A DNA stretch of 64,000 nt, from assembly GCA_030430575.1 (NCBI GenBank), contig JAUIKF010000045.1, forward strand, positions 1 to 64,000, written 5' to 3'. Origin of the DNA: Bacteroidia bacterium (GTDB lineage: Bacteria; Bacteroidota; Bacteroidia; J057). Of the stretch, positions 10,177 to 43,300 are shown piece after piece. Every line of letters begins with the position of its first letter. Positions within the stretch are counted from its first letter, which is position 1. The notes under the pieces are model-generated. The model saw only the letters and a list, made by a program, of their open reading frames with translations. It had not been told where the DNA came from and ran no database searches. A program made the translations under genes and the position numbers.

Positions 10177-10256
10177 ATCAGCCTCAATATACGGATTTAA
10201 TCTTTTTGGGTACGACGCCCTTCTAAACCCCACATTATGGTGTAGGGAAGAACAAT

Positions 10257-10335
10257 TTAGGTTCTAGGTTCTAGGTTCTAGGTTTTAAGTTCTAGGTAAA
10301 ATCCAACATAGAGCCTAGAACCTAAAACCTAGAAC
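10257..10335. repeat. Inverted array of GGTTCTA / TAGAACC words
   Basis: Tandem copies of GGTTCTA (left) face copies of TAGAACC and TAAAACC (right), so the RNA from either strand can form a long imperfect hairpin. It lies directly past the stop of the minus-strand universal stress gene and upstream of the kinase gene. Related arrays occur near 16.45, 20.63, 26.1, 29.73 and 50.36 kb. Confidence 0.88.
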
Positions 10336-10340
10336 ATTCT

Positions 10341-11165
10341 TTAGGCCTCTGTACTCAAAGTCAGAATAGGCTGCTCCAATTCATTGACAAGCGCTTCGGT
10401 GATACTTCCCCCCTTGAAAAGGCGCTGGAAGAAGGGTTCTCCATGGCTTACCATAGCGACTACCGAAGGGTTATGTACATTGGCAAATAATTTGATTCCG
10501 CCTTTGATGTCCACATCCCCTTCTTTGTGCCTGGTCACAGGCAATGATCCACACATGGCTTCGAATGCTTTCATCTTCTTTTCTGTCAGGTAGTCTTCCA
10601 CTTTTGTGGCGTCAGAGAGGGATACAGCAAGCAGATGGATATGGGAGCCAAAGTTTTCAGCTAAAGTAACTAATTGCTTAAAAGGAGCCTGTGCCTCACG
10701 CCTAAAGTCAGACGCAAAGACAATTTCTTTAAAGTCGTATGACTGCCGGGCTTGTTTTACAACAAGTACAGGGATCGTCAATCGGTTGACAACTCGCTGG
10801 GCATTTGATCCAAAGATCGACTTGAGTCCCACGGCTCCACTGGAACCCATGATGATCATGGTAATGTCTTCTTGTTTAGCGAATGCCTCCATCCCATGAA
10901 TCAGGCTATCATGGGTATAAACCAAGCGAATGGGTACACCGCTAGCGGTATAGCGTTGTCGCAGGGTCTCAAAGTGAACCTGCAACTGAAGGGGCAACTG
11001 TCCTTCTTCGCCTGGGTGGGCCTCGAAGAAAGTAGCTTCCCGTTTTCCAGGAATACTTGAGAAAAAACAGACAGTAGCGCCCATTTGAGGGGCTATGGCC
11101 ATGGCGGCATCTGCGCCCAAAAAGGACGTATCTGAAAAATCGGTGGGGACGAGTAGATATTTCAT
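10341..11165 (-). CDS. Two-domain universal stress protein (UspA family)
   Basis: This 274-residue cytoplasmic protein has two Usp domains. The first begins MKYLLVPTDFSDTS and carries the nucleotide-binding signature MGSSGAVGLKSIFGSNAQRVV. The second, from about residue 147, starts KEIVFASDFR and has lost most of the glycine-rich signature (MVSHGEPFFQRLFKGGSITEALV). Tandem Usp proteins are typical stress and starvation modulators in Bacteroidota. A paralogue of the same length lies at 12156-12980 on the other strand, and the two flank a small membrane protein gene. Confidence 0.92.
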   Translation of the reverse strand: MKYLLVPTDFSDTSFLGADAAMAIAPQMGATVCFFSSIPGKREATFFEAHPGEEGQLPLQLQVHFETLRQRYTASGVPIRLVYTHDSLIHGMEAFAKQEDITMIIMGSSGAVGLKSIFGSNAQRVVNRLTIPVLVVKQARQSYDFKEIVFASDFRREAQAPFKQLVTLAENFGSHIHLLAVSLSDATKVEDYLTEKKMKAFEAMCGSLPVTRHKEGDVDIKGGIKLFANVHNPSVVAMVSHGEPFFQRLFKGGSITEALVNELEQPILTLSTEA

Positions 11166-11844: not shown

Positions 11845-12006
11845 GGAAAGTCAATTTTGACTTTTTCTCTTGTTGCGACGGGCTAAAGACTTCGGCGTGA
11901 GCTCAGTCGAACGCCCAGTCGCAATAGTTCTTTACCTATCATTTCCTACTATTGCGACTGGGTTTCAACCCGTCGCAATAAGGCAAATTCCTTAAAAGGA
12001 ATTTTT
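11845..12006. repeat. Composite four-hairpin element, copy 1 (inverted)
   Basis: Read left to right, it consists of a small palindrome AAAGTCAATTTTGACTTT, a TTGCGACGGG...CCCAGTCGCAA hairpin, a spacer containing TAGTTCTTT, a second ATTGCGAC...GTCGCAAT hairpin, and an AAATTCCTTAAAAGGAATTT palindrome. The same parts in the opposite order form copy 2 (27580-27717) and copy 3 (37528-37957). In this copy the loop of the first hairpin carries an extra ACTTCGGCGTGAGCTCAG segment that also occurs near 16331. Confidence 0.9.
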
Positions 12007-13008: not shown

Positions 13009-13767
13009 TTATTTATTAATAATTCCTACCATCTCCCCAGCCTTATCCTTCCACTTCTCCCCCTCGCGCGCGATGCGCGCGAAGATCGCCTCGGCGACTT
13101 CCGTCTCGCCACGTTTCAGCTGAGACATGGCAAGGTACCATTGGGCATCTTCGAGGAAGGATGAGGTAGGCGTCTGGAGCACCTTCACCAAGAAGCCTAC
13201 GGCTTGTTCGGGTCGGTCGAGCGACAACTCGCAGATGGCTGCATAGAACTGCCAGCGGCTCCATTTTTCGTCAGAGGTATTTTGGCTGGCGAGGTGGCCT
13301 TGAAGGCCTACCAGGGCCAGCCCATAATCACCCGTTTGGTACGCTTTTTCCCACGGCACAACCGCCTGATTATCTGAGATGGAGAGGGCAGGCGCTTGAT
13401 AATAAGTCGAAAAAAGGTCCGTAGGACTAGCAGGTGAAGGGATCAAAATGACAAAAACAGCCAGCAGCGCCAATAAGATCACCCCTCCCCCAAAAGCATA
13501 AGGATATTGCTTGACCCACTGCTTGATAGGTTCTAACCAACTACCTCGATGAATCATCGAAGTCTCGATTTGCCCCAACATCTGATCAAATGCGATCACA
13601 TCCTCTTCCGTCGCTGCTTCTATCAGCGTACGGTAGCGTAAGACCTCCATCCGGAACGACTCGTCCTGGGCACAGCGTGCCTCTACTTTCGAGCGTTCGA
13701 TGGCGTCTAGCTTCTCAAGGAGATATGCCTCGATCAATTGGTAATCCTGGGTAGAGAAAGGGGGCAT
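13009..13767 (-). CDS. Membrane anti-sigma-like protein with helical repeat domain
   Basis: This 252-residue protein has a cytoplasmic N-terminal helical segment (DYQLIEAYLLEKLDAIERSKVEARCAQDESFR) that resembles the sigma-binding part of Bacteroidota anti-sigma proteins. A transmembrane helix follows at about residues 93-110 (GGVILLALLAVFVILI), then a periplasmic TPR-like domain (LALVGLQGHLA, WQFYAAICELSLDRPEQAVGFLVKVL, QWYLAMSQLKRGETEVAEAIFARIA). It starts 36 bases after the ECF sigma gene on the same strand, the usual sigma/anti-sigma order. Its last codons (IINK and stop) fall in an ATTATTAATAA word repeat. It is related in layout to the protein at 21816-22628. The anti-sigma role is inferred from layout and neighbours. 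Confidence 0.72.
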   Translation of the reverse strand: MPPFSTQDYQLIEAYLLEKLDAIERSKVEARCAQDESFRMEVLRYRTLIEAATEEDVIAFDQMLGQIETSMIHRGSWLEPIKQWVKQYPYAFGGGVILLALLAVFVILIPSPASPTDLFSTYYQAPALSISDNQAVVPWEKAYQTGDYGLALVGLQGHLASQNTSDEKWSRWQFYAAICELSLDRPEQAVGFLVKVLQTPTSSFLEDAQWYLAMSQLKRGETEVAEAIFARIAREGEKWKDKAGEMVGIINK

Positions 13768-13803
13768 TAAATGGTCAATGGTTAAGGGTTAATTGTCAAT
13801 TGA

Positions 13804-14400
13804 TTATCTCCTAGACAAGCTTTCAAATAATTGAGAAGTGCAAAGGTCCTTTTGCTTGAGTGCTTCCGCTTCTGAAGTCCCTAGCAAATCCGCTATTTCA
13901 GCAATAGCGTTTTTTTGATAATACAGCGATAAGAGTTCTTGACACTTTTCGCCTAACTGCGAAAAGGCATGGCGAAAAAGCTGTTTTTGGCGGGTTTCAT
14001 GAATGAAGCCAACGGTTTGAGAATCCGGCGCTACATAGTCCAAATGGCCGATGATCTCCATAGGCGCTTTTTCGGAGGGAGTAGCGGTAGCTGATTGTCG
14101 TGCCAGCCACTGGTAGCGGCAAATGCCTGCAATGTACTGATCCAGCGACGCGGGCATGCTCATTTTTCCGCGTTTCACTTTCCGAAAGAGGACAACCAGC
14201 GCTTCTCGAAACAAGGCATATGCATCCGCTTCGGTGCCTTGGTTGTGCTTAATATAGGTAATGATGCTGGGGAGATAACGGCGATATAGCTCCCGAATGA
14301 CTTTTCGGTCAGCTAAGGCAATAGCCCTTAAAAGGGTCTGATCATCCGCACGGCTAAGGTTTTTCATGACGAAGTCCAAATTACTATGAACATTCATCAT
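13804..14400 (-). CDS. ECF-type RNA polymerase sigma factor
   Basis: This 198-residue protein has a region 2-like segment (LADRKVIRELYRRYLPSIITYIKHNQGTEADAYALFREALVVLFRK), where ADAYALFREA matches the usual DAEDVVQE core. A variable linker follows, then a region 4 helix-turn-helix (LGEKCQELLSLYYQKNAIAEIADLLGTSEAEALKQKDLCTSQL). It is cotranscribed with the membrane anti-sigma-like gene downstream and divergent from the CHAT protease gene, with 84 bases between start codons that must hold both promoters. A second ATG at residue 12 is an alternative start. A paralogous sigma gene lies at 22625-23224. Confidence 0.88.
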   Translation of the reverse strand: MMNVHSNLDFVMKNLSRADDQTLLRAIALADRKVIRELYRRYLPSIITYIKHNQGTEADAYALFREALVVLFRKVKRGKMSMPASLDQYIAGICRYQWLARQSATATPSEKAPMEIIGHLDYVAPDSQTVGFIHETRQKQLFRHAFSQLGEKCQELLSLYYQKNAIAEIADLLGTSEAEALKQKDLCTSQLFESLSRR

Positions 14401-14484
14401 TTTGAAATATATTTAGCATAAATGCGGGCTTTCCCTTCTTCAGTCCTTGTTCTGCAATCATTATTCTGAAATCATTCAACATCC
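14401..14484. promoter_or_regulatory. Divergent promoter region between sigma and CHAT genes
   Basis: This 84-base gap separates the divergent start codons of the ECF sigma factor and the CHAT protein. Both promoters and any binding site for the encoded sigma factor must lie here. I cannot point to a clear consensus hexamer. Only the position supports the call. Confidence 0.4.
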
Positions 14485-16284
14485 ATGCTTCCCGTAGTAT
14501 TCCTCGCCTTCGCCAATGATCCCAATGACCGCCTTGCCCAGTTGGGAGAGGAAGACGAATGCATCCACAGCCATCTGCTCCCGTGGAGCAATGCTCAGCG
14601 CATTCAACTACATCGCAATTCCTTTGCGAAGCTGGATATCATGGCCAAGGAACTGGCGAGCTTTCATCCACGCGTAGCACTGCTTCACTATGCAGGGCAC
14701 GCTGGAGGCCAAAGTCTACTCCTAGAAGATGGCACCGCCGATGCCCAAGGCATCGCTGGACTCCTAGGCCGTCAAGACGCATTAAAACTCGTGTTTCTCA
14801 ACGGCTGTGCGACAGAGGCACAGGCGGTCAGACTGCTCCGAAGTGGAGTGAAGGCGGTCATCGCGACCTCCGTGCCCATCAATGACCAGCGGGCCAAGGC
14901 CTTTGCCGATCACTTCTACCATGCCTTATGCCTGGAGGGGAATCCCCATACCCTTGGGGAGGCATTTGACCAAGCCAAGAGTGTGCTACTCAGCGAAACA
15001 GGTGCGGAGAATGTAGGAGAACAAATTCAGGAAATAGACGGGCTATCAGTCGCCTACCGCGGCATTCGCATCCCCAAAAAGCCCAACGCGGCTATAGACA
15101 TCCCTTGGTCCCTCTTTTATCAAGAATCGGATCGTGACGCTGTCCTCAATTGGCGATTACCCCAGGAAAGCGGACGATCCATCATCATCCAAAGTGCTAC
15201 CGACCGCTATCAGGGGCGGGAAGCCCCTGTGAATGAACTGCTGGTAAAACAGTTGTTTGAAGCCTTGGCGGGCTATAGTGATGACCTGGAGTTTTTTCAA
15301 TTTCAGGCAAGTAAGGGGAAAAAAGTGGACATACGCATCCTGCGTCGCGCCATCATGGACTGCCTGCCTGCACCGATCGGCGAGCAGATCCGCAAACTCT
15401 TTGCGGCGGACAGCAAGGGGGGCAGCAGTCGCTTGGACCAGATCGGCGAACCTCGTCTGGCTCAGTTGGTCACGACCTATTCCACTCTCATGGAGCTGCT
15501 CAGCTTTATCGTCATGGCCCAGCTATGGGATGTGAAGTATGAGCGAAAGGCGAATTGGAAGCCTGTGGAAGCAGCCGAAGGCGCGCTGAAGGATTTTATC
15601 CAACAAGGACAAGCTTATATCATAGGGAAACGTGCCCCATTTTTAGGACAACTTTATGCGCTATTCCAGGCCCAGGGAGTTCCTTTCTTTGTAGAAGAAA
15701 TGGGTGATTTTGGGAAAAGGTTAACAACGGAGCCCCTAGCAGAAGCTGTTGCTTTCTTTGACGCGCTGGAAGCGCAACTAGCAGCGCCTGACACCAAGAT
15801 CAGCGCAGATGAACTTCAGCAATTCTGCCTCGCAGCAGAAGACAATCTAGGCCAGGTCATGGCTACCACAGCCTTCCTCGCAAAATATAAACTCCTGACA
15901 GTCAAGAACATTGACTTTGTCAAAACCCGTCACGAATCGCCAAAATACCGCCACTATAAGGTAAACCTGGACACCGTAACCGCAGGTTACCTCGACATCG
16001 AGGAGACCTACGATCAGTTCACAGACAATAAAAGTGTCATCCTGCTCAAATCAGCAGATACCATTTCACCTTCTCTGAATCTTTCGCCCTTTATCCTCGA
16101 CGAAAATGCCTTCACAGGAGACGACAAATCTAAGCTCTTTTTTTTCCAAAACTACGATGCCACCCAAAACGCCTATCGCTTCAAATTCGCCTATGTGCAG
16201 TCAGAAGAATTGTGGGCTTCGAAAGCCTCCTTTGCCGAAATTCACGCTCAGTTTGAGGCGTTTAGAGAATGTATGGAGGGATAA
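14485..16284 (+). CDS. CHAT-domain caspase-like protease with uncharacterised C-terminal region
   Basis: The first 200 residues of this 599-residue protein form a CHAT (caspase HetF-associated) peptidase domain. The catalytic His is His72 (LLHYAGHAGG) and the catalytic Cys is Cys108 (LVFLNGCATEAQ). GVKAVIATSVPINDQRAKAFADHFYHAL is the typical following segment. The remaining 400 residues, starting IPWSLFYQESDRDAVLNWRLP, I do not recognise; they are mostly helical with a beta-rich end and may recognise substrate or a partner. No signal peptide is seen, so it should act in the cytoplasm. It is divergent from the sigma/anti-sigma pair and followed after 215 bases by a STAND NTPase gene on the same strand. 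CHAT proteases in type III-E CRISPR systems cut a sigma-inhibiting protein, which makes the neighbouring anti-sigma protein a candidate substrate (inference). Confidence 0.85.
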   Translation: MLPVVFLAFANDPNDRLAQLGEEDECIHSHLLPWSNAQRIQLHRNSFAKLDIMAKELASFHPRVALLHYAGHAGGQSLLLEDGTADAQGIAGLLGRQDALKLVFLNGCATEAQAVRLLRSGVKAVIATSVPINDQRAKAFADHFYHALCLEGNPHTLGEAFDQAKSVLLSETGAENVGEQIQEIDGLSVAYRGIRIPKKPNAAIDIPWSLFYQESDRDAVLNWRLPQESGRSIIIQSATDRYQGREAPVNELLVKQLFEALAGYSDDLEFFQFQASKGKKVDIRILRRAIMDCLPAPIGEQIRKLFAADSKGGSSRLDQIGEPRLAQLVTTYSTLMELLSFIVMAQLWDVKYERKANWKPVEAAEGALKDFIQQGQAYIIGKRAPFLGQLYALFQAQGVPFFVEEMGDFGKRLTTEPLAEAVAFFDALEAQLAAPDTKISADELQQFCLAAEDNLGQVMATTAFLAKYKLLTVKNIDFVKTRHESPKYRHYKVNLDTVTAGYLDIEETYDQFTDNKSVILLKSADTISPSLNLSPFILDENAFTGDDKSKLFFFQNYDATQNAYRFKFAYVQSEELWASKASFAEIHAQFEAFRECMEG

Positions 16285-16316
16285 GCATATAATTCTAAAG
16301 GCCGTAGCCTGAGCGT

Positions 16317-16430
16317 GGCCGTAGCCTGAGACTTCGGCGTGAGCTCAGTCGAACGCTTGTCGAAGGCGATGGCCACTCGAACCTCAGAGGCTTCTCCGGC
16401 TTCGACAAGCTCAGCCTACGAAGCCTACTA
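16317..16430. repeat. CTTCGACAAGCTCAG-type repeats
   Basis: Between the CHAT and STAND genes lie inverted words GTAGCCTGAG, ACTTCGGCGTGAGCTCAG, CGAACGCTTGTCGAAGG and GGCTTCGACAAGCTCAGCC. They can pair with each other. The ACTTCGGCGTGAGCTCAG part also occurs in the composite element at 11.9 kb. The following bases up to 16499 are TAGAAC words plus the pyrimidine leader of the STAND gene. Confidence 0.8.
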
Positions 16431-16499
16431 AGCCACAGAAGCCTCCCTAAACATAGAACATAGAACCCAGAACCTAGAACATAAAACCTTCTTCCCCCC

Positions 16500-19400
16500 A
16501 TGAAAAGTCCATTCAAGTTTCTTGACGCCTACACCGCAGACGAGCGTCACCTGTTTTATGGACGGGACGAAGAGATCGACCAGCTATACCGCATGGTCTT
16601 TCAGACCGATGTGCTGCTGGTCTACGGCCAGTCAGGGACGGGGAAGACCAGCCTGATCCAGTGTGGTCTCGCCAACCGCATGCAAGACTCAGACTGGTTT
16701 GAGGTATTTGTAAGGCGCAAAAATGACCTCAACACGTCGCTCGACGCTGCGCTAGCGAAGGCCGCACAGACGCCTTTTGAAACAGATGCTACGCTAAGCC
16801 AAAAGGTAGAATCCCTTTTTCTGGACTATTTTAAGCCGATTTTCCTCATCTTTGATCAGTTTGAAGAATTGTTTGTTCTTGGAAATAAAGACGAATACGA
16901 GCAGTTTGTGGAAGACGTACAAGCTCTGCTCAAATCGGGTCACAACTGTACGCTCATCTTCGTGATTCGCGAAGAGTATTTGGGACAGCTTTATCATTTT
17001 GAGAAACAAGTGCCTCAGCTGCTGGACAAGCGCCTGCGGGTAGAGCCGATGGGCCTGGGCAATGTAGAAAAAGTGATCAAAGGGTCTTGCCAAGCCTTTG
17101 ACATCGCGTTGGAACAGCCCGAAGTGACGGTCCCTAAGATCATGGACAAGATCAGTGCGGGCAAGTCAGGTGTGCAATTGGCGTATTTGCAAATCTACCT
17201 CGATCGCCTGTATCGAGAGGGAGGCAATACGTTTACCCCAGCTCTGAGTGAGCAAGTTGGGGATATTACAGAAGTGCTGGGCGATTTTTTGAGTGAACAG
17301 CAGCAGGCCGTTCAGGCTGCCCTTTCTAAAGCATTTCCCAAGGCCCCAGTCACGGGCATCCGCCAACTGCTCAATGAATTTTCGAGCCTGGAAGGCACCA
17401 AACGCCCTTTGGCGCGAGAACACATCAACGTCCCTGACCTTTCCCAAGAAGCCATTACCTTTAGCCTAAAACAACTCGAAGACGCACGCCTCCTCCGCTT
17501 CAATGACGGCCTCTACGAGCTGGCCCATGACACGCTTGCCTTGCACATCGCCCAAGGGCGCGATGAGCGAGAGCGCAGCTTGATCGAAATCGTCTCAGTC
17601 ATCCGCAATGGCTTTCGCAGCTACGAGACGACGGGAAGTCTGCTCAGTGAACGGGAACTGCAAGCGGTCGCCCCCCACGAGGTGGAACTCAAGATTCAGC
17701 AAAAGCTGAAACAAGCCGAGTGGGGCTACCTGCGTCAGAGTCGCAGCGAGCTAGCCCAACAGAAGCGCAAAGCAAGCCGCCTGCGCATGGGCATCATCGC
17801 TGCCTTGACCCTCTTCAGCCTCTTTGCTGGCTGGCAATGGTTCGTCGCGGAGCGTGAACGCGACGAGTCGCAACGCGCCCTCGCCAACTTCTGGATGTCA
17901 GAATCAGGACGCAAGATGGTTGAATACGACTTCGCTTCAGCATTCCGGCTGGCGCAGCATGCCAAGCGGGAGAACCCCGACCTGGCGGAGGTAGACCTCC
18001 ACCTCAACCATATCAAAAATCATTTAGCAGATGGACAAGGCAAGGCCTCTGACATCATCAGTAATGGGAATTTCATTCGCTTCTTTGACCAGTACAATGA
18101 CTCTACGCGCCTCGCAAGACTGAACTTGTGGCGACGGCTTGCGGATGGCAGCTTTACCAAGAAAACCTTCCCCAATGTGCCCAGACCTGAATGGATATTC
18201 AGCCCAGATAGCAGCCTGTTGGCTGTTTTTTCCCTTACGGACAGAAAAACGAGCAAGGGCATCTATTACCTCCTCCGGGCTGATAGCTTACAAGAAATGG
18301 CACAATTTGAGGGACAAGACGATTCCTATTTCTGGGCAAGTGAGGGGCAATATTTTGGATTTTACCAGATCGGAGATTCCACCAGTCATGTCTACTTAGT
18401 GGACCCTGTGGGAAATGACTCGTTGATGTTTGACACCCATTATAGAAATGTCACTGCGGCCCCTATTGGGGGAAAGATCGCTATCTTCAAGCATAGGCCG
18501 AACCCAATTCTTCACCTCCAAGACCTGGGGGGGAGTTGGGAGGACAGCATTTTGAATGCGACAAATGGTGGACAGCCACAGTTTGATCCGACCGCTCAGC
18601 GAATCTCATTTGTTCGAGAACCTACTATTCCTGATAACCGATATATCAAATCTGACTTATATGTAAGGGAATTAGCTACTGGGAAGGAAGTATTGCTCCA
18701 CAAAAATGGCCCAAGATACCCTAATCATTTGCCTTGGTCCTCCGATGGCAAATGCCTTGTGTATAAGACTGCGGAGCATCCGTCAAATAATGATCTGCTC
18801 AAAATAGCCCTTTGGAGTTCGTATGGGCATCGTTTTTCCCCCAAAGGATATATTCAGTATGACCTGTCTTACCCAGAAGATATGGGCATTCAATTTTGTG
18901 CCACCCAAACGCATAAAGCAATCCTTCATGAGCAAAAGGAGGCATCATCTCGGAGTTTCGAAGGAACCTCTTTTACCATTTGGAATTATCAGACAGGGGA
19001 GACAAAAGTATGGCAAGGCATCGTTTCTTTCGAATTGAGTGCAGATAGCTCGGTAGTATTATTGGTACAAAATGCAGGCAATTACGAGCGGAAGTTGATT
19101 GGAATTGACCTTGCCAACGATCGTCAAAGAGTCTTTGATCGATTTTCCAGGTATCAGATACATCCCCGCAAACGAGAAGTTATGATTGTGCAGGAAACAC
19201 CAGATGTCCTTAGCACGAATATTTTGCGGTATTGGGAAGTTGATTCTGATCATATTAAGCACTGGAATAGCCTAGATTTATTGGGGTCTTTATCCTTTTG
19301 GGGATTCAGTGACGATGGAAAATATGCGATTGCATCTAGAAATGGAGAATATGACAGTGATACTAGACGGAGACTTGACGCCCTTTATTTTCTCAACTTA

Positions 19401-19880
19401 GCTACGCAACATATAGACAGTCTTCGTGGATGGAGTCTGGGCAATTATGCACGGAGTCTGGATGGAAAATACTTTTCTTATTCTATGGGAGATACTACCG
19501 ATTCTAAGAAAAAGTTCTTGTATATCTACAACCTTGAAACACACGAGTCGTGGAACCCGCTCAGCCTGGAGGAGGATCCTCATTATGACTACAATCAGTT
19601 TGAGTTTGGCTACGGTGTACTGGCTATAATGAAAGGGGATAGAACCCTCGCTTTTTACGATCTCGAAAAGAAGCAAAAAATAGCTGAGGTGAATCACCAG
19701 CGTAAACTGCAAAGAAACTACACCTATTTCCCCCCCCATTCCTCCTATGCCATTACTTATTCAGAAAACAGCTGGCATAAAATCATTCGCTTAGACACTC
19801 CGCTCACTGTCGATTATTATGACAAAATCCTGCCGCCCCTGGATGAGGAGGCACGAAAGCGGTATCATATCTTGGAATAA
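16500..19880 (+). CDS. nSTAND1-type NTPase with transmembrane helix and C-terminal beta-propeller
   Basis: The protein has 1126 residues. Residues 1-20 read FKFLDAYTADERHLFYGRDEE, the usual nSTAND1 entry motif. Walker A is GQSGTGKT at 43-50. Walker B is IFLIFDQFEELF with Asp119 and Glu122-123. A winged-helix part follows (SFSLKQLEDARLLRFNDGLYELAHDTLALHIA near 321-351). A transmembrane helix lies at about 429-449 (MGIIAALTLFSLFAGWQWFV), then a short helical region (AFRLAQHAKRENPDL) and about 600 residues of TolB/WD40-like propeller blades (WIFSPDSSLLAVF, HLPWSSDGKCLVY, FWGFSDDGKYAIAS). Such STAND proteins act as switches that oligomerise on sensing a signal. Here the propeller is on the far side of the membrane from the NTPase. 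It probably works with the upstream CHAT protease. The start is set by the CCTTCTTCCCCCC leader. Confidence 0.9.
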   Translation: MKSPFKFLDAYTADERHLFYGRDEEIDQLYRMVFQTDVLLVYGQSGTGKTSLIQCGLANRMQDSDWFEVFVRRKNDLNTSLDAALAKAAQTPFETDATLSQKVESLFLDYFKPIFLIFDQFEELFVLGNKDEYEQFVEDVQALLKSGHNCTLIFVIREEYLGQLYHFEKQVPQLLDKRLRVEPMGLGNVEKVIKGSCQAFDIALEQPEVTVPKIMDKISAGKSGVQLAYLQIYLDRLYREGGNTFTPALSEQVGDITEVLGDFLSEQQQAVQAALSKAFPKAPVTGIRQLLNEFSSLEGTKRPLAREHINVPDLSQEAITFSLKQLEDARLLRFNDGLYELAHDTLALHIAQGRDERERSLIEIVSVIRNGFRSYETTGSLLSERELQAVAPHEVELKIQQKLKQAEWGYLRQSRSELAQQKRKASRLRMGIIAALTLFSLFAGWQWFVAERERDESQRALANFWMSESGRKMVEYDFASAFRLAQHAKRENPDLAEVDLHLNHIKNHLADGQGKASDIISNGNFIRFFDQYNDSTRLARLNLWRRLADGSFTKKTFPNVPRPEWIFSPDSSLLAVFSLTDRKTSKGIYYLLRADSLQEMAQFEGQDDSYFWASEGQYFGFYQIGDSTSHVYLVDPVGNDSLMFDTHYRNVTAAPIGGKIAIFKHRPNPILHLQDLGGSWEDSILNATNGGQPQFDPTAQRISFVREPTIPDNRYIKSDLYVRELATGKEVLLHKNGPRYPNHLPWSSDGKCLVYKTAEHPSNNDLLKIALWSSYGHRFSPKGYIQYDLSYPEDMGIQFCATQTHKAILHEQKEASSRSFEGTSFTIWNYQTGETKVWQGIVSFELSADSSVVLLVQNAGNYERKLIGIDLANDRQRVFDRFSRYQIHPRKREVMIVQETPDVLSTNILRYWEVDSDHIKHWNSLDLLGSLSFWGFSDDGKYAIASRNGEYDSDTRRRLDALYFLNLATQHIDSLRGWSLGNYARSLDGKYFSYSMGDTTDSKKKFLYIYNLETHESWNPLSLEEDPHYDYNQFEFGYGVLAIMKGDRTLAFYDLEKKQKIAEVNHQRKLQRNYTYFPPHSSYAITYSENSWHKIIRLDTPLTVDYYDKILPPLDEEARKRYHILE

Positions 19881-21815: not shown

Positions 21816-22628
21816 TCACTCTGAATTTTCCGTCTCGCCTTTCATTTGCTTGAGAAAGTCTATGGCGGCGGTTTGTTGGAAATGGGCATCGGTACGGGCG
21901 ATTTCTTCCATGAGGCCTATGGCCTGGATGATCATGCCATGGCGGAAGTACGCCAGGGAGAGGTACCAGCGCGCTTGTTCACTATAAGCTGTCTCATCGC
22001 TGATGAGCTGGACAAACTGTCGAGCAGCTTTATGCGTGCTATCCAAGGCCATATAGCTAAGGGCCAACGCCAGCGAAGCGTCGGAGCGCTCTGAGTCATT
22101 ATCCAAGAGTTGTTTAAGTAAGGGAACAGCTTGGTCGTATGAGGCATTGGAAAAGGCTATACGGGCTTTCTCAGCCAGTTGGCGGTTGCTGGCAGGTGTT
22201 TCCGTAGAGAGCTCTAGGGAGAGCGGCTCGAAATAAGCCACGGCAAGTGTTGCAGGGTCTTTAGTATTTCGTGGAGCTTCTGCTTCCACCACAGGGCTCC
22301 CGGCAGGAGATGAAATCAGTGGCGTATAAATGGCCAGCAGGGAGATCACGGCAGCCAGCGCCAAAGTAGCAGCCCCTATTCGTGTATATAGCCTACGTTT
22401 TTTCTGCTTTTCAGCCTTTAGTTCCTCCAATACCTTCTGCACTGCCTCCCTGGTATGGGCACGATATAGCAATTCAAAGGCCATTAAGGACTCTCGCTGA
22501 AGGCGTAGTTTCTTGGCGAGAAATGGATCATGCTCAGCCTCCTTTTCAAGGGCTTTACGCTCCACTTCTATGATGCTGTGATCATAGTAAGCTTCTATCC
22601 ATTCGTTATAGTCACGCGCGTCCGTCAT
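21816..22628 (-). CDS. Membrane anti-sigma-like protein with TPR-like domain, second copy
   Basis: Start taken at the ATG overlapping the sigma stop (ATGA), which gives about 270 residues beginning MTDARDYNEWIEAYYDHSII. An earlier in-frame ATG would overlap the sigma gene by 40 bases. It has an N-terminal helical segment, basic KAEKQKKRRLYTR, a transmembrane helix (IGAATLALAAVISLLAIYTPL) and periplasmic TPR-like repeats (AFSNASYDQAVPLLKQLLDN, ASLALALSYMALDSTHKAARQFVQLI, ARWYLSLAYFRHGMIIQAIGLMEEIA). The layout matches the protein at 13009-13767. Translational coupling to the sigma gene supports an anti-sigma role. The C-terminal stop lies in AATTTTCATTC word repeats. Confidence 0.75.
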   Translation of the reverse strand: MTDARDYNEWIEAYYDHSIIEVERKALEKEAEHDPFLAKKLRLQRESLMAFELLYRAHTREAVQKVLEELKAEKQKKRRLYTRIGAATLALAAVISLLAIYTPLISSPAGSPVVEAEAPRNTKDPATLAVAYFEPLSLELSTETPASNRQLAEKARIAFSNASYDQAVPLLKQLLDNDSERSDASLALALSYMALDSTHKAARQFVQLISDETAYSEQARWYLSLAYFRHGMIIQAIGLMEEIARTDAHFQQTAAIDFLKQMKGETENSE

Positions 22629-23224
22629 GAAGTCACCATCTGTGATTCGATTTCCTTCATCCATTGTGTATAATAGAAGGATTTAAGGGTTTTTGCTTCT
22701 TCTGTATTTCTGAGACCTACTAGCTGTGAAATTTCGTCCAAGCTGCATTTGTGGTGGTAGAACAAGCTGAGGATTCGCTGGCCTTCAGGGTCAAGACAGC
22801 TCAATGCCTGGTCAGTAGCAAATAGCAAGTTGGAAAAATGATCATCAGTGCTTTTCAGGATCTGTTCCTGAATATCGCGATCATATTTTTGTTGGGAAAG
22901 CTCGTAGAAGGCTTGCTTGATCAGGTCTTTCTTTCCTGCGGGATCAGCATCCTTCTTATGCTTGGAGCGCCATAGCTCCCAGCAACTGAGAAAAATGTAT
23001 TCTTTGAGATTGTGAATCGAGACGACCTTTTCATTCAACACTTTGTCCACAAAAACCAGCATCGCATCCACCAAGATTTCCTCTGCAACCGCCCGGTCAC
23101 ATCCCGCTCGCTTCATCAATGTTTGGGTGCAATACTCACTGCATTCTCCCAGAATCTCTAGGAAGACATCCCGATCGCCTGCACGCAGCCGTGTTTTGAG
23201 TTTTTCGAAAGCCGTTTTATTCAT
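22625..23224 (-). CDS. ECF-type RNA polymerase sigma factor, second copy
   Basis: The start is placed at MNKTAFEKLKTRLRAGDRDVF, about 199 residues; the in-frame extension upstream (FFFCKITFYFLKGTF) looks like untranslated AT-rich DNA. Region 2-like segment: AVAEEILVDAMLVFVDKVL. Region 4: LSCLDPEGQRILSLFYHHKCSLDEISQLVGLRNTEEAKTLKSFYYTQWM. Its stop overlaps the start of the membrane partner by 4 bases. It is similar in size and layout to the sigma factor at 13804-14400, so the two pairs are probably paralogous modules. No CHAT or STAND gene accompanies this pair. Bases 23225-23500 upstream hold its promoter but no clear motif. Confidence 0.82.
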   Translation of the reverse strand: MNKTAFEKLKTRLRAGDRDVFLEILGECSEYCTQTLMKRAGCDRAVAEEILVDAMLVFVDKVLNEKVVSIHNLKEYIFLSCWELWRSKHKKDADPAGKKDLIKQAFYELSQQKYDRDIQEQILKSTDDHFSNLLFATDQALSCLDPEGQRILSLFYHHKCSLDEISQLVGLRNTEEAKTLKSFYYTQWMKEIESQMVTS

Positions 23225-23500
23225 ACCTACTACAAAAGTCCCCTTCAAAAAATAAAAAGTTATCTTGCAGAAAAAGAAAATCAAATTTCATACCATTCCT
23301 TGCATTTGAAGGAGTGTTGCCAAAATAGCATACTAGAAGAATGATCCCCTAACCTGTTTTGTGCCAAAACTTTCATACCTTTTGACTCCTTCTAGGCAAA
23401 GTAACGCATATCAGCCATTAACGCAACTTTGGACCAAACAGCCCGTCTTTCTCTCAAAATGACTGTTTCCCCTGCCATTTTGGGATTTCTGAGAGAATGT

Positions 23501-23648: not shown

Positions 23649-26090
23649 ATGATCAAAAATTACCTCCTCTCCGCTTTTCGTAACTTATGGCGAAAAAAAG
23701 CTTTTTCCCTGATCAATATTCTGGGACTCGCCATTGGGATGGCCGCATGTCTTATGATTTTGCAGTATGTCAATTTTGAGCGCAATTACGAGCGTTTCAA
23801 TGAGGATGCGGATCATATATTTCGGGTAAACAAGGAAAACTTTCGCGGGGAAGAATCCAGAGGCAAAGACCTCTACTCAGCCCACCGACTAGGCCCCAAT
23901 TTGGAGCAGGACTTGCCAGAGGTGAAGAAGGCTATTCGCTTTCACCCATGGTACGGAAGTGCTGTCATCAGCTATAAAGGAGAAGAGGGGGAATTGGTTC
24001 AGTTCAATGAGGAAGATATCTACTTCACCGATTCGACGGTATTTCAGGTATTCACCTACCCGCTGAGCTACGGCGATCCGCAGACGGCCCTGGCCGACCC
24101 CTTTAGCATCGTGATTACACGTAAGATGGCGACCAAATACTTTGGGACAGAGGTAGATCCAATGGGAAAAGTATTGACCGTAAATGGTGGATGGGCGGAA
24201 GGGGATTTCACCGTGAAGGGAATCATCGAGGAGGCACCAGCCAATACCCATATCGTCTTTGATTTTTTGATGCCCATGTCTGTGCTGCTGAGCAACGACC
24301 AATACAGAGAATCCTCTGGCTGGGGATGGACCAATTTTTTCACCTACGTACAACTAGACCCACAGGCCGACCCTGTCAAATTAGATGAAAAACTGGTCGA
24401 ATTGTCTGACAAATACCAAACAGAAGGCCAGGTAGAAAGGAATTCGAAGTACGTCTATCACCTCATGCCGATTACCGACATCCACTTATACTCAGAACTA
24501 GAAGGGGAACCAGAACCGGCCAATAAGGCCCAGAATGTCTATTTTTTTACCCTCATTGCCATCATTATCCTCCTCATCGCTTGGGTCAATTATATCAACC
24601 TCTCTACCGCGCGCTCCATGGAGCGGGCACGTGAAGTGGGCATACGCAAGGCCATCGGCGCCAAGCGCAGCCAGCTAGTCACTCAATTTCTCTTTGAGTC
24701 ATTTCTCATCAACAGCATAGCTGTTTTGATCGCTGTGGGACTCTCCTTCCTTCTGCTTCCCCAATTGGGCGAATTGTTTGGAAAGCCATTGGCTGTGAGC
24801 CTACAAGGGGATGCGCCTTTCTGGCTGACAGCCTTGGGCCTATTCGCCTTTGGGGCCTTTATCTCAGGCCTATACCCCGCCTTTGTCATGTCAGCGTTTA
24901 AGCCTGTGACGGCGCTGAAAAGTGGTGTGATGAAGCTCGGGGCTGGCGGATTGCTGCGCAAGGTACTTGTAGTGACGCAGTTTGCCGCCACCATCGCGCT
25001 GATCGCGGGCGCTTTTGCCGTACTGAAACAACTCAACTACATGCGTGGCATGGATGTAGGCATGCACATGGACCAGATCCTCGTGGTCAAAGGCCCTAGC
25101 ATCGTCGAGGACCGTGAAAACATCCGCGAGACGATCAAGACTTTCAAACAGGAGCTGAAGCGCCTCCCCAATATTCAGGCAGCAGCTAGCTCAGCGAGTA
25201 TCCCTGGCGCGGGCCACAACTGGGGCACGGGCATGCGGCGCTTGGGGGCAGATGTCAATGAGACACGCTCAGGGAGCATTGTCTGGGTGGATTATGACTT
25301 TTTTGATACCTATGGGATGGAGTTGCTAGCGGGGCGGACATTTTCTGACGACTTCGGTACAGACGAGGAAGGACTCGTGATCAATGAAGCGGCGGTGACC
25401 GCTTTTGGATTGGGGAGCCCTGAACAGGCCCTTACGGAGCGAATGTCTATAGGCGGAGATACCGCCAAGATTATTGGCGTCCTCAAAAACTACGGTTGGG
25501 CTTCGCTTAAAGACGACTTTACCCCCATGTTGCTGGCACCTTCCAAAGGCAGTCGCAGCTATTTTTCCTTTCACCTCCAGACTCGAAATCTCGACCAGAC
25601 GATCGCTGAGATAGAAGAAAATTTCCGGACTACTTTCCCTGGTAATCCCTTTAACTACTTCTTTCTCGACGATTATTTTGACAAAGAATACAAAGAAGAC
25701 AAGCAGTTTGGAAATGTCTTTGGGCTGTTTACGCTCCTGGCCGTGCTGGTCGCTTGTCTGGGGCTGTATGGCCTGTCTTCTTTCACCGCTATGCAGCGCA
25801 CCAAGGAAATCGGCATCCGCAAAGTCCTTGGTGCTAGCACCTCCAATATCGTGGTACTTCTCGTAAAGCATTTCTTCTCACTTGTCGGGATAGCAAGTGT
25901 TTTGGGGCTGATTTTGGCGTGGTTTGGGATCACCAGTTGGCTGGAGGAATTTGCCTTCCGCATCGATCTGGGGATAGTCTTATTTATCGTGCCTATCCTT
26001 GCCGTGATCTTCCTGGCCCTCGTGACCGTGATCGGCCATACGCTTCGCGCTGCTTCTACGAATCCGGCCAATGCGTTGAAGACGGAGTAA
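23649..26090 (+). CDS. MacB/FtsX-family ABC transporter permease
   Basis: This 813-residue inner-membrane protein begins MIKNYLLSAFRNLWRKKAFSLINILGLAIGMAACLMI, the typical entry of Bacteroidota MacB-like permeases. A periplasmic core domain (about residues 45-280) follows. Then three membrane helices of the first FtsX domain (IAIIILLIAWVNYINLSTARSMERAREVGIRKAIGA), a linker helix (VLVVTQFAATIALIAGAF), a second periplasmic domain, and a second FtsX domain (LFTLLAVLVACLGLYGLSSFTAMQRTKEIGIRKVLGA). No ATPase gene is adjacent; such permeases often use a distant LolD-like ATPase. The family assignment is certain, the exported cargo unknown. Confidence 0.95.
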   Translation: MIKNYLLSAFRNLWRKKAFSLINILGLAIGMAACLMILQYVNFERNYERFNEDADHIFRVNKENFRGEESRGKDLYSAHRLGPNLEQDLPEVKKAIRFHPWYGSAVISYKGEEGELVQFNEEDIYFTDSTVFQVFTYPLSYGDPQTALADPFSIVITRKMATKYFGTEVDPMGKVLTVNGGWAEGDFTVKGIIEEAPANTHIVFDFLMPMSVLLSNDQYRESSGWGWTNFFTYVQLDPQADPVKLDEKLVELSDKYQTEGQVERNSKYVYHLMPITDIHLYSELEGEPEPANKAQNVYFFTLIAIIILLIAWVNYINLSTARSMERAREVGIRKAIGAKRSQLVTQFLFESFLINSIAVLIAVGLSFLLLPQLGELFGKPLAVSLQGDAPFWLTALGLFAFGAFISGLYPAFVMSAFKPVTALKSGVMKLGAGGLLRKVLVVTQFAATIALIAGAFAVLKQLNYMRGMDVGMHMDQILVVKGPSIVEDRENIRETIKTFKQELKRLPNIQAAASSASIPGAGHNWGTGMRRLGADVNETRSGSIVWVDYDFFDTYGMELLAGRTFSDDFGTDEEGLVINEAAVTAFGLGSPEQALTERMSIGGDTAKIIGVLKNYGWASLKDDFTPMLLAPSKGSRSYFSFHLQTRNLDQTIAEIEENFRTTFPGNPFNYFFLDDYFDKEYKEDKQFGNVFGLFTLLAVLVACLGLYGLSSFTAMQRTKEIGIRKVLGASTSNIVVLLVKHFFSLVGIASVLGLILAWFGITSWLEEFAFRIDLGIVLFIVPILAVIFLALVTVIGHTLRAASTNPANALKTE

Positions 26091-26099
26091 GAAATGTTT

Positions 26100-26165
26100 A
26101 AGTTCTAGGTTCTAGGTTCTAGGTAAATAGACAACTTAGAACGTAAAACTTAGAACATAGAACCT
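26100..26165. repeat. Inverted GGTTCTA / TAGAAC array at convergent gene ends
   Basis: AGTTCTAGGTTCTAGG on the left faces ACTTAGAACATAGAACC on the right, with about 20 bases between. It overlaps the last codons of the minus-strand membrane protein gene: the codons for Gly-Ser-Met-Phe and the TAA stop are part of the word array. It could terminate both converging transcripts. Confidence 0.85.
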
Positions 26166-26800
26166 TCTTCTTCTTTCCCCATCTCTTCCACCATCTGCTC
26201 GTAGCTGAGCTGTAGCTTCTCTTCTTCCCGACGCTGAAGGTCGCGGAGGTTGAGGATCAAAACGGCGAAGCCTAATAGGTTCCAAAGCCCTAATAGGACA
26301 AGAGCCGTCTCTTCATTTCTGATGAAATCAGGCATTGAATTCGTCTCTACCAGGAAAAGGAGGACTAATGGGATCACGCCTATGGCAACTAGTATGAGGA
26401 GCCATTTGATCACTTCTGTCGGATAACGCCTCGGCTTTTGAAAGTGGCGGACTGTGTAGAGTAGGTTTAATGTGAGGGTAAATACCACAAATAACAATAT
26501 GGCAGTATCTTCATGGACTTTTTCCACAATTACTAAAAAGAAACACCCCACACTTGCCAAAAAGAAAATGATAAACCCCCAGAACATTCCTCCCTTAAAG
26601 CGATGTTTTGCAATAGAAATAATGGCTAACACAGGTATCCAGAGAAGGGTTAGGACTGCTAAGGCTCTGAGGAAATCTTTCAACATCCTACGCCATTCAA
26701 AATCAATATCTGCATATCCATTAAACAACCCCACTCCCCACAACAGCCCAAAAAGCATCAGGGTTATGTAAAACGGCCAACCATGTTTGAATTTCCACAT
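26150..26800 (-). CDS. Small polytopic membrane protein paired with LytTR regulator
   Basis: I do not recognise a named family. The 216-residue protein starts MWKFKHGWPFYITLMLFGLLWGVG and has about six hydrophobic helices. It ends in a charged helix (LNLRDLQRREEEKLQLSYEQMVEEM). Its start codon overlaps the stop of the LytTR regulator gene, so translation is coupled. The paralogue at 58059-58670 shares the MWK-K-WPF start and the NL-DLQRR end. A membrane sensor feeding the LytTR regulator is plausible because no histidine kinase is next to it, but it lacks any kinase domain. Confidence 0.75.
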   Translation of the reverse strand: MWKFKHGWPFYITLMLFGLLWGVGLFNGYADIDFEWRRMLKDFLRALAVLTLLWIPVLAIISIAKHRFKGGMFWGFIIFFLASVGCFFLVIVEKVHEDTAILLFVVFTLTLNLLYTVRHFQKPRRYPTEVIKWLLILVAIGVIPLVLLFLVETNSMPDFIRNEETALVLLGLWNLLGFAVLILNLRDLQRREEEKLQLSYEQMVEEMGKEEEGSMF

Positions 26801-40319: not shown

Positions 40320-43300
40320 ATGAACATTTTTACTTGTCAATTAGGCAGGCTTGTAATGGTCTGTCTAATTGCTTGTAGCCTTCCCTTATTGGGAATGGCT
40401 CAGCACGCTGACCAGAAAGGTCACACACCGTTACAGTCCCAACAAAAGGCTAAAATAGCCTCCATAGCCACTTCTGGGGCTTATGATAGCTTAAAAAGCA
40501 GTCAATTTGGCGGATTCTATTTTTTGAATATCAAAATAAACGAATTGCCTGATTTCTGTCAATGGACATCGTTTTCAGATAAGGGGATTCGCATCCTTTC
40601 GTATAAGCGTCCTCAGGAGTACCTGGTGGCGGTTCCTGACACGACTTCCCTCGAAGAACTCCTCCAATTGCCGATTCAACATATTAGCCCCATTCCCCTT
40701 CAAACCAAGCTGGCCCCCACACTTGCTGCCACTATATTGGCAAATGCTTATGTAGGACAAGATCACCTCAAGCTTGATGTGGCACTTTTTGATGTGGTAT
40801 CTTTTGAAGGGGCAAAGGCAGTGCTGACGCAGGCTGGATATGTTTTGACAAAATCGGCCCCTCAAGTGTACAGAGTGCAAGTAGCTATTCCATATGACCG
40901 ACACTTCGAGCAGGCCATCATTGGATTGGCGGCGTTTTCGTTTGTCGCCCATATAGATTGGGCCACTTCTCCGACTTTACCTGCCAATATTGAGGGGGTT
41001 CGGCGCCATGGCGCTAGTTATGCCCAGCATGTAGAAGGCCTCGACGGGGCTGGGGTTGTCATAGGGGTCGGTGATGGAGGGTATGTAGCACCTCATGTGG
41101 ACCTGGACCAGCGAGTTCTCAATCAGTCGCTTAGCATTCTCCCTAGCTACGCCAATCACGGTGACCACGTTACCGGAACCATCGGCGGCGCTGGCAATCG
41201 CCTCCCCATTCATGGAGGCATAGCCCCAGGGGCGATCTTGCTCACCCACCAAACCAAAAATATTTGGATGAATGCCCCTACCTACTTCCAGCAGCACGGT
41301 ATGGTCCTCACCAACAATTCTTATGCGGAACCTTTTAATTGTGCCACCGCTGGGCAGTACACCCTAGATAGTTATACCATCGATCAGCAAGCCAACAGCC
41401 TCCCGGCCTTACTCCATGTCTTCTCTGCGGCTAATGAAGGTAGCCAGACCTGTGCACCTTTCCCCAAAGGATACCATACCATCAATGGAGGATACACTTC
41501 CGCCAAGAACAATCTGGTGGTGGGCGCCCTAGACGCTGCAGGCGAAATCGCCAGTTACTCCAGCCATGGGCCAACCACAGACGGCAGGCTGAAACCCGAA
41601 ATCTGCGCTGTGGGAACAGGCCTGATGTCCACCGTTCCTACAGATGCTTACAATACCTTTTCAGGTACGAGTATGGCATCTGCTACAGTGACGGGTTCTC
41701 TTGCCTTGCTTTATCAGCAATACCGCCAACTTTATAATGGGGCCAATCCGGATGCCGCCTTGATCAAAGCAATTGTATGCAATACCGCCAAAGACTATGG
41801 TCTACCAGGCCCTGACTACCGCTATGGATTTGGCACATTAGATATACAAAAAGCTTCTGCTACCTTGAAAGAAGGTCGATTTGCAACGGGCAGCGTGGCA
41901 GATGGCCAAAGTCAAAGTCCAGTTTCTATCACTGTCCCTTCAGGCGCACATAGCCTGAAAATCATGCTGTGCTGGACAGATGCTGCCGCGCTTCCTGGAA
42001 CGGGCTCTTCTCTGGTCAATAACTTGGACCTCACGGTCACAGACCCTTCAGCTACGACCGTCCTGCCTTGGACGCTCAATCCCAATGGCTTCAACGTGCT
42101 GAACCCTGCCGTACGAGGCGTAGACACCCTGAACAATATGGAGCAGGTGACCCTTACCAATCCAGACCCTGGCACCTATACCGTATCAGTGACTGGCGGA
42201 AATGTGGCGGTAGGCACCCAAGCCTATTATATAGCCTATGAGGTAGGCTCGACCAATTTAGTCCTCGAGTACCCTGTGGCAGGCGAAGCGCTTGTGCCAG
42301 GGGAGATTGTACGCTTATGGTGGGATGCCCACGGGCTTAGTGGAGGGAACTTCCTGCTGGAGTATTCGGAAAATGGGGGAAATACCTGGCAAACGATCAG
42401 TACGGAACTGATTACTGCTAGAGATAGGAGTTGGCAGGTACCTGCTTCAGCAACCGCGCAAGCGCGTGTTCGCGTCAGTCACACCCAAAGTAGTGCCAGC
42501 AGTGAATCAGGTGATTTCACCATTATAAGCACTCCTACCCTCTCGGCTACCATCCCCTGTGATGGGGCTATAGACCTCTCTTGGAATGCCATCAATGGAG
42601 CAATAGGCTATGACTTTATGATGCTGGATACCAGCATGAAAACCATAGATACCCTAGCCGTCAATTCACACCAGCTAGTGGGCCTCAATCCTACAGAGAC
42701 CTACTGGCTGGCCGTACGGGCCAAGCTATCCACGGGAGCACCTGGCCGTCGGGGCCAGGCTATCAAGGTGACGCCTTCTGGCGCAGGACCCTGTCCTTCT
42801 CAGTATGACCTTGTGCTTTCGCAGATCATGAAGCCTGTAGGTACCGGGCGCACACATAGTATCACTTCCTTTTCTGCTGCAGAAGATTTGCAGGTGGAGA
42901 TTCAAAACTTAGGCACCAGTACTGTCAGTGGATTTCGACTTTGTTATCAAGTAAACGGTGGTGGACCCATCGTTTCTGATTCCCTTCACACGCCCCTATC
43001 CCCAGGGGCATCTTTTACCTATACCTTTGGTCAACAAGTCAATCTACTGGCAGCTGGGGCCTATACTATTGCTGCTTGGGTTGACTGCACAGGGGATGGT
43101 GCGAGCGCCAATGACTCAGTAGCCGTCACGGTACGTCAACTCGCCAATCCCCCCCTTACCCTTCCAGTTACAGAAGGGTTTGAATCAGGGATACCTGCTA
43201 CATATTCCAGTCCACTCATGGGAGTTGAAGGAATTGATTGTCTAGATTACGAGCAAGGGAGCTCAGGAGGAAGATTACGCACAGATGCAGGCCCTGGCTT

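Follow-up and report, generated by a model that had tools for sequence, protein, structure and literature searches.

A CHAT-nSTAND1 pair and a sigma/anti-sigma pair lie back to back in a Bacteroidia genome and probably represent two separately inherited modules

The 64,000-nucleotide stretch analysed here (hereafter the window; positions 1 to 64,000 of contig JAUIKF010000045.1 of the Bacteroidia bacterium assembly GCA_030430575.1) contains, at 13009-19880, four genes coding for a sigma factor of the extracytoplasmic function (ECF) type, a membrane anti-sigma-like protein, a CHAT cysteine protease homologue and an nSTAND1 NTPase. The original prediction, made from the DNA alone, had read them as one CRISPR-independent signalling and proteolysis system; all four open reading frames (ORFs) are present in the ORF list of the window where it had placed them, and the domain matches agree with the gene identities. 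The genes for the 252-amino-acid (aa) single-pass anti-sigma-like protein (13009..13767, minus strand) and the 198-aa sigma factor (13804..14400, minus strand, start codon uncertain) are read away from the gene for the 599-aa CHAT protein (14485..16284, plus strand) across an intergenic region of 84 bp (14401..14484, from ORF coordinates). The CHAT gene is followed, after a gap of 215 bp in which a repeat search found repeats (16285..16499), by the gene for the 1126-aa NTPase (16500..19880, plus strand). Comparison with relatives suggests that the locus probably consists of two separately inherited modules standing back to back, namely the CHAT-nSTAND1 pair (module A) and the sigma/anti-sigma pair (module B), relatives of the latter being associated with CHAT proteases of another class that carry tetratricopeptide repeats (TPR-CHAT).

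The CHAT assignment is based on PF12770 (E=4.8e-10, 39.8 bits against a cut-off of 24), an alignment of relatives and a structure model of moderate confidence (mean pLDDT 69.1). The domain occupies residues ~1-228, at the N-terminus, and its best solved structural match is SAVED-CHAT (PDB 8tl0; Z 20.0, root-mean-square deviation 2.5, 184 residues aligned), followed by gingipain (Z 14.4) and caspases (Z 13.2 and less). As had been predicted, His72 and Cys108 are intact: H72 and C108 are present in 9/9 aligned CHAT relatives, the window protein counted, and H72 in 80/80 aligned rows from named records, where the equal count for C108 is biased because the Cys was part of the search pattern. The large C-terminal region (~229-599), which the prediction had called unrecognised, matches no Pfam family and is conserved in the CHAT-nSTAND family; the VIA-align matches listed cover residues ~1-228 (a few extend to 312) and so do not describe its fold. 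Designed PPR proteins were rejected as relatives of this region, their matches being taken as chance. Hydropathy revealed no signal peptide or transmembrane helix, no TPR profile matched at E<=1, and the protein is apparently cytosolic.

The neighbouring NTPase carries an nSTAND1 domain at residues 4-347 (PF20703; E=3.9e-40, 139.1 bits against a gathering score of 27.1), a hydrophobic helix at residues 432-450 (hydropathy) and a large C-terminal region. It had been described as a membrane nSTAND1 protein with an external propeller, of which the nSTAND1 domain and the hydrophobic helix stand, whereas Pfam gave no propeller or any other match to residues 451-1126, even at E<=5. A propeller is still suspected from propeller-like repeats seen by eye, and L090, a paralogue in the window genome, has WD40 repeats where the window NTPase gives no Pfam match. 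The full-length Avs4 profile reached 22.8 bits against a cut-off of 1500 and aligned with the ATPase part only; other Avs types were covered by the PADLOC scan as a whole, in which matches for the window and the relatives tested were weak or partial, save for the caspase model (matched by the L088 caspase), the TPR model and the HEAT/ARM model.

On the opposite strand, the 198-aa protein matches NCBIfam sigma70-ECF (E=1e-10, 41.5 bits, slightly below the curated cut-off of 42.9), and ECF sigma factors of solved structure are matched by a profile of its family, both in agreement with its earlier assignment as an ECF sigma factor. The earlier description of the 252-aa protein as a membrane TPR anti-sigma-like protein is borne out by a single hydrophobic helix at residues 91-109 (hydropathy) and by Foldseek, where its AlphaFold model (mean pLDDT 87.6; helical N-terminus at 1-90, TPR part at ~138-251) matched TPR structures; profile matches to TPR were under the cut-off, and a weak anti-sigma profile match covers residues 11-47 (16.6 bits against a cut-off of 100). 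An anti-sigma role is suggested by the tandem order, as a sigma gene is directly followed by the anti-sigma gene in 36 pairs, at spacings of -73 to 231 bp. From charges read by eye, residues 1-90 are taken as cytosolic and the TPR part as extracytoplasmic.

CHAT and nSTAND1 form a conserved pair, and this part of the predicted system holds in relatives. A single-sequence search found CHAT relatives, many of them matching in the CHAT domain only, in 13/13 genomes of the window's family (its own included) and in 0/47 others. All eight full-length relatives with the C-terminal region (from genomes G000, G001 and G005; candidates in G002 and G006 on contigs <4 kb were left out) have an adjoining nSTAND1 gene, which overlaps the CHAT gene by 4 bp in three of these loci. 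A profile search of named records gave 209 CHAT relatives, and the best 80 of these, whose loci were analysed, belong to Saprospiraceae, Aureispira, Dyadobacter, Larkinella, Erythrobacter, other Alphaproteobacteria, KSB1, Aminicenantes and others. Because the profile search reached these taxa, the family must be wider than the single-sequence search implied; with the window CHAT protein alone as query in genome contigs no relative was confirmed, whereas an alignment query did find relatives. One of the 80 named loci has no ORF and five have too little downstream sequence, and nSTAND1 lies within the next two genes of CHAT in 73 of the remaining 74, the exception being L161. Two named loci, L190 and L214, are the same as the in-family loci L088 and L094 (CHAT proteins 100% identical), and clustering at 60% identity reduces the 79 named CHAT proteins to 50 groups. 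The two genes are at most 10 bp apart in 46/73 named loci, 24 of which overlap, compared with 215 bp in the window. In L092, L103 and L105 CHAT and nSTAND1 are fused in one protein of ~1145-1192 aa, and because L095 8051-10957 (968 aa) matches both parts, the CHAT C-terminal region can share one protein with nSTAND1. In L096 the match to the C-terminal region is weak and no nSTAND1 gene stands beside it. Directly upstream of this CHAT protein of the window class lies a response regulator-PglZ gene (L096 35-1822), which we take to be PorX-like.

The NTPase gene codes for at least 450 aa in 44/73 loci, and in 34 of the 44 its product has a hydrophobic helix beyond residue 350; the gene is shorter in the other 29, where the next gene carries a helix in 16. 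Counting either location, a transmembrane helix therefore follows the NTPase in 50/73 loci. The sensor parts vary, with WD40 in L087, L091, L090, L150, L154, L216 and L192, OmpA in L093, TPR-like parts in L094 and L173 and a second nSTAND1 in L157, while a sensor domain was recognised in none of L147, L163, L175 and the window. Such STAND and CHAT logic with variable sensors, together with C14 caspase genes at two of the eight in-family loci (directly upstream in L088, divergent in L090), would fit an abortive or cell-death conflict system, built from a membrane sensor and a caspase-like effector, as the outcome of module A rather than a gene-regulation switch. The PADLOC matches, weak or partial apart from that of the L088 caspase, argue against such an outcome, as do the ordinary genes that adjoin several CHAT-nSTAND1 loci, and its probability appears to fall slightly short of even; it is compatible with two separate modules.

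Module B relatives were counted with the profiles A1 and A2, built from the window genome, because iterated profiles drifted and labelled long TPR proteins as anti-sigma. In five genomes, a TPR-CHAT gene (PF12770 >80 bits; CHAT matches <80 bits were not counted) stands no more than 10 kb from 39/58 anti-sigma matches scoring at least 67.6 bits, with ~3.6 expected under uniform placement, whereas other sigma factors, taken as a control, have one that close in 2/74 cases with 3.1 expected. The share is 18/26 in the window's own genome, 10/15 in G001, 7/7 in G005, 4/9 in G007 and 0/1 in G003, and the four genomes besides the window's own together give 21/32 against 1.57 expected. Counted from the other side, 42/79 TPR-CHAT genes have an anti-sigma gene of this kind within 10 kb. 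Anti-sigma matches <67.6 bits were left out, among them G005:C1:6014766 (near TPR-CHAT) and G000:C64 and G001:C32:68617 (not near), and the control leaves out sigma matches that are <50.5 bits, that stand beside an anti-sigma match or that are stronger (mostly in pairs).

Beyond these genomes, an even sample of the class gave an anti-sigma match at E<=1e-18 in 39/149 genomes, 35 of them outside the window's family. Fourteen of the 35, from 11 families and chosen by longer matches, were followed, and the anti-sigma gene is close to a CHAT gene in 8/14 genomes and 5/11 families (three of the genomes share one genus and two another), at distances within 200 bp (G157, G158, G128), of ~2.3 kb (G028, G072, G140) or of ~6 kb (G084, G119). 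In L131 sigma, anti-sigma and TPR-CHAT genes form an operon with a 4-bp overlap at both junctions. Across 28 loci, module B is divergent from TPR-CHAT in 15, convergent in 9 and on the same strand in 4; L124 and L125 were entered through CHAT coordinates and the second pair of L116 through a stretch cut to include the CHAT gene, the other module B loci through anti-sigma similarity or the window itself. Proteins with a PKD domain or a type IX secretion system (T9SS) tail lie near several sigma/anti-sigma pairs (L111, L116, L118, L121, L122) and are possible regulon members.

The TPR-CHAT proteins differ from the CHAT protein of the window. By a simple hydropathy rule, 27 of 31 have a hydrophobic N-terminus, 30 a C-terminal helix and 26 both, a combination seen in 38/268 ORFs >400 aa at the same loci when the 31 are included; either feature occurs in 0/9 aligned proteins of the window class. 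All 31 retain His and Cys at the presumed catalytic alignment columns (12 of them had served to build the TPR-CHAT profile that found the set, and one, L126, has no pair in its stretch). The TPR-CHAT proteins associated with module B look exported and membrane-anchored, which would place them in one compartment with their candidate substrate, because the TPR part of the anti-sigma protein, judging from charges by eye, would be outside. A CRISPR-independent association of CHAT, anti-sigma and sigma genes, as the original prediction had envisaged, seems widespread in Bacteroidia (39/58 matches, 8/14 genomes), but usually with a CHAT class unlike that of the window.

The idea that all four genes are conserved as one system was rejected on the 8 in-family and 80 named loci, in which the four-gene order occurs in 0/8 and 0/80 within the flanks covered. 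A module B pair stands beside 0/8 in-family CHAT-nSTAND1 loci, L095 carrying an ECF sigma factor of another type, and near 1/80 named loci (L174), with a lone sigma match without anti-sigma near six further ones. Upstream of CHAT, 68/79 named loci have 2 kb or more of sequence, and 54/79 have 5 kb or more on each side; because the flanks of CHAT limit the search and they are short in some loci, the absence of the order is partial knowledge, and the closest CHAT relative, L147 (42% identity), has just 261 bases upstream. A tree shows no close orthologue of the window pair, which groups at low support with mostly TPR-CHAT-linked pairs, a placement that is a hint only because support is low there. 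The two modules are probably independent in the window.

Several observations weigh against this interpretation. TPR-CHAT was not found within 10 kb of 19/58 anti-sigma matches (8/26 in the window's own genome and the 1/1 of G003), some of which are on short contigs, and the association is missing in 6/14 followed genomes, where CHAT lies elsewhere (G159, G067, G148) or was not found (G094, G077, G113). In 23/73 nSTAND1 loci no transmembrane helix was found, and no solved anti-sigma domain is among the 50 Foldseek matches listed for the anti-sigma model. In the window itself only 84 bp separate the divergent starts, and a post hoc calculation for this genome puts the number of such neighbours expected within 200 bp at ~0.01; divergence is also the commonest order of module B and TPR-CHAT. 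Finally, L174 (Flavilitoribacter nigricans) shows both modules together a second time, the CHAT-nSTAND pair being preceded on the same strand by genes for sigma, anti-sigma and TPR-CHAT plus one other gene.

A functional link between the two modules in the window is nevertheless judged unlikely. Such a link could take the form of one system in which the membrane nSTAND1 protein triggers the cytosolic CHAT protease, which would cut the cytosolic N-terminus of the anti-sigma protein and free the sigma factor, making it a counterpart of Craspase without CRISPR that perhaps arose as a CHAT-nSTAND pair replaced TPR-CHAT. The close divergent neighbours, the CHAT association of the anti-sigma family with its mostly divergent order, and the presumed cytosolic location of anti-sigma residues 1-90 are consistent with this, as is the tree group of ten around the window pair (support 0.30-0.35), eight members of which have TPR-CHAT within 12 to 13 kb. 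Given that the order is missing from every in-family and named locus, that the window pair lacks a close orthologue and that the usual partner protease looks periplasmic, a single system of this kind is improbable. Alternatively, the ECF sigma factor might act from the short, shared 84-bp region on both the gene that encodes it and the divergent CHAT-nSTAND operon, which would place module A within the regulon rather than upstream as a trigger; the 15/28 comparable loci with module B divergent from TPR-CHAT would suit such a purely transcriptional link, but the repeat-bearing gap may uncouple nSTAND1 and the arrangement is seen in the window genome alone, so that it too is doubtful.

The two modules can be compared with several known systems. 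In the Craspase protease the TPR region precedes the CHAT domain, unlike in the window protein, where the CHAT domain is N-terminal and a TPR match was not found. Membrane anti-sigma proteins such as RseA, with DegS, and RsiW are cut by regulated proteolysis, which releases an ECF sigma factor; the proteases there are others, and the CHAT protease here is a candidate only. Like Craspase, the window encodes a CHAT protease, a candidate inhibitor and an ECF sigma factor together. The type III-E CRISPR Craspase/CASP system is described as comprising Cas7-11, the TPR-CHAT protein Csx29, Csx30 and CASP-sigma, its protease reportedly cleaving the inhibitor and so relieving sigma, and RseA/DegS and RsiW proteolysis is named in the same source (PMC10028731). 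Unlike Craspase, the 64-kb window has no detectable CRISPR-like array (three direct-repeat families were found, none array-like), a membrane STAND NTPase is the trigger proposed for it, and the widespread relatives have an apparently exported and anchored CHAT protein and a membrane TPR anti-sigma protein. SAVED-CHAT is an effector of type III CRISPR and of the cyclic-oligonucleotide-based antiphage signalling system (CBASS) (PMC11229360); its CHAT domain is alike, whereas the window protein has no SAVED part and is partnered by an nSTAND1 NTPase.

EACC2-caspase neighbourhoods with an ECF sigma factor and a DUF1822 TPR protein are predicted to act together (PMC8195603), and they resemble the locus in joining a caspase-superfamily protein, an ECF sigma factor and a TPR protein. 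By their description, those neighbourhoods have a caspase with an EACC2 domain where the window has CHAT, and DUF1822 gave no match to the window anti-sigma protein at E<=1 (Pfam); in the accessible part of PMC7159879, a forerunner of that paper, no mention of CHAT was found. In nSTAND1 conflict systems, nSTAND1 NTPases are combined with an effector and with sensors that vary (PMC8195603, PMC10907252), and nSTAND1 and CHAT proteins linked to diversity-generating retroelements are also described (PMC10907252). Unlike in these, the effector here is encoded by a CHAT gene of its own and has a C-terminal region that is conserved, and a transmembrane helix follows the NTPase in most loci. A limited literature search found no description of sigma/anti-sigma/TPR-CHAT loci outside CRISPR, which is weak evidence of novelty.

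The window contains a second sigma/anti-sigma pair of the same family (21816-23284, minus strand), ~7 kb from the first and absent from the original prediction. It consists of a 282-aa TPR anti-sigma-like membrane protein (21816..22664; ORF list, similarity and hydropathy) and a 219-aa ECF-type sigma factor (22625..23284, start codon uncertain; ORF list and profile), and TPR-CHAT was not found anywhere on its 71-kb contig. The whole genome of 8.16 Mb has 39 CHAT matches, 11 nSTAND1 matches and 26 anti-sigma-family matches of at least 67.6 bits. Intergenic repeats lie at 10248-10341, 11887-11914, 16285-16499 and 26089-26172, one set parting CHAT from nSTAND1; they include an exact 28-bp repeat at 11887 and 16329 and repeats of the type AACCTAGAAC. 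Further downstream, 40320-47336 (plus strand) codes for a 2338-aa protein with a subtilase domain, SprB repeats and a T9SS sorting tail.

From what is observed, namely which genes are present and how they pair, the hydropathy signals, the conservation of the catalytic residues and the statistical association, we infer the topology, activation, docking, cleavage and outcome of both modules. In module A, an extracytoplasmic sensor would detect a ligand, upon which the cytosolic STAND NTPase would switch and oligomerise at the inner membrane. The CHAT protein would then dock on the NTPase through its C-terminal region, and its cysteine protease would become active in the cytosol, most likely as part of a conflict or stress response. 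In module B, the cytosolic N-terminus of the anti-sigma protein would hold the sigma factor, and the TPR part would be exposed to the periplasm; in many relatives, a nearby, apparently exported and anchored TPR-CHAT protein may cut or bind this periplasmic part and so start the release of sigma.

If TPR-CHAT proteins cut the neighbouring anti-sigma proteins, caspase-like control of sigma factors would be a general mode of bacterial envelope signalling and not a CRISPR speciality. Perhaps, though we hold this to be rather unlikely, Bacteroidia possess many parallel CRISPR-independent channels in which envelope-anchored TPR-CHAT controls a TPR anti-sigma protein and an ECF sigma factor, the window being a rewired version with a cytosolic protease gated by a transmembrane STAND NTPase, and Craspase a CRISPR-coupled branch of this older logic. 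If TPR-CHAT proteins do cut these anti-sigma proteins, the origin of the Craspase arrangement could be put to the test, single genomes offering from several to about twenty natural loci. The CHAT-nSTAND1 pair is a second, separate kind of system, in which an often transmembrane sensor is coupled to a caspase-like protease.

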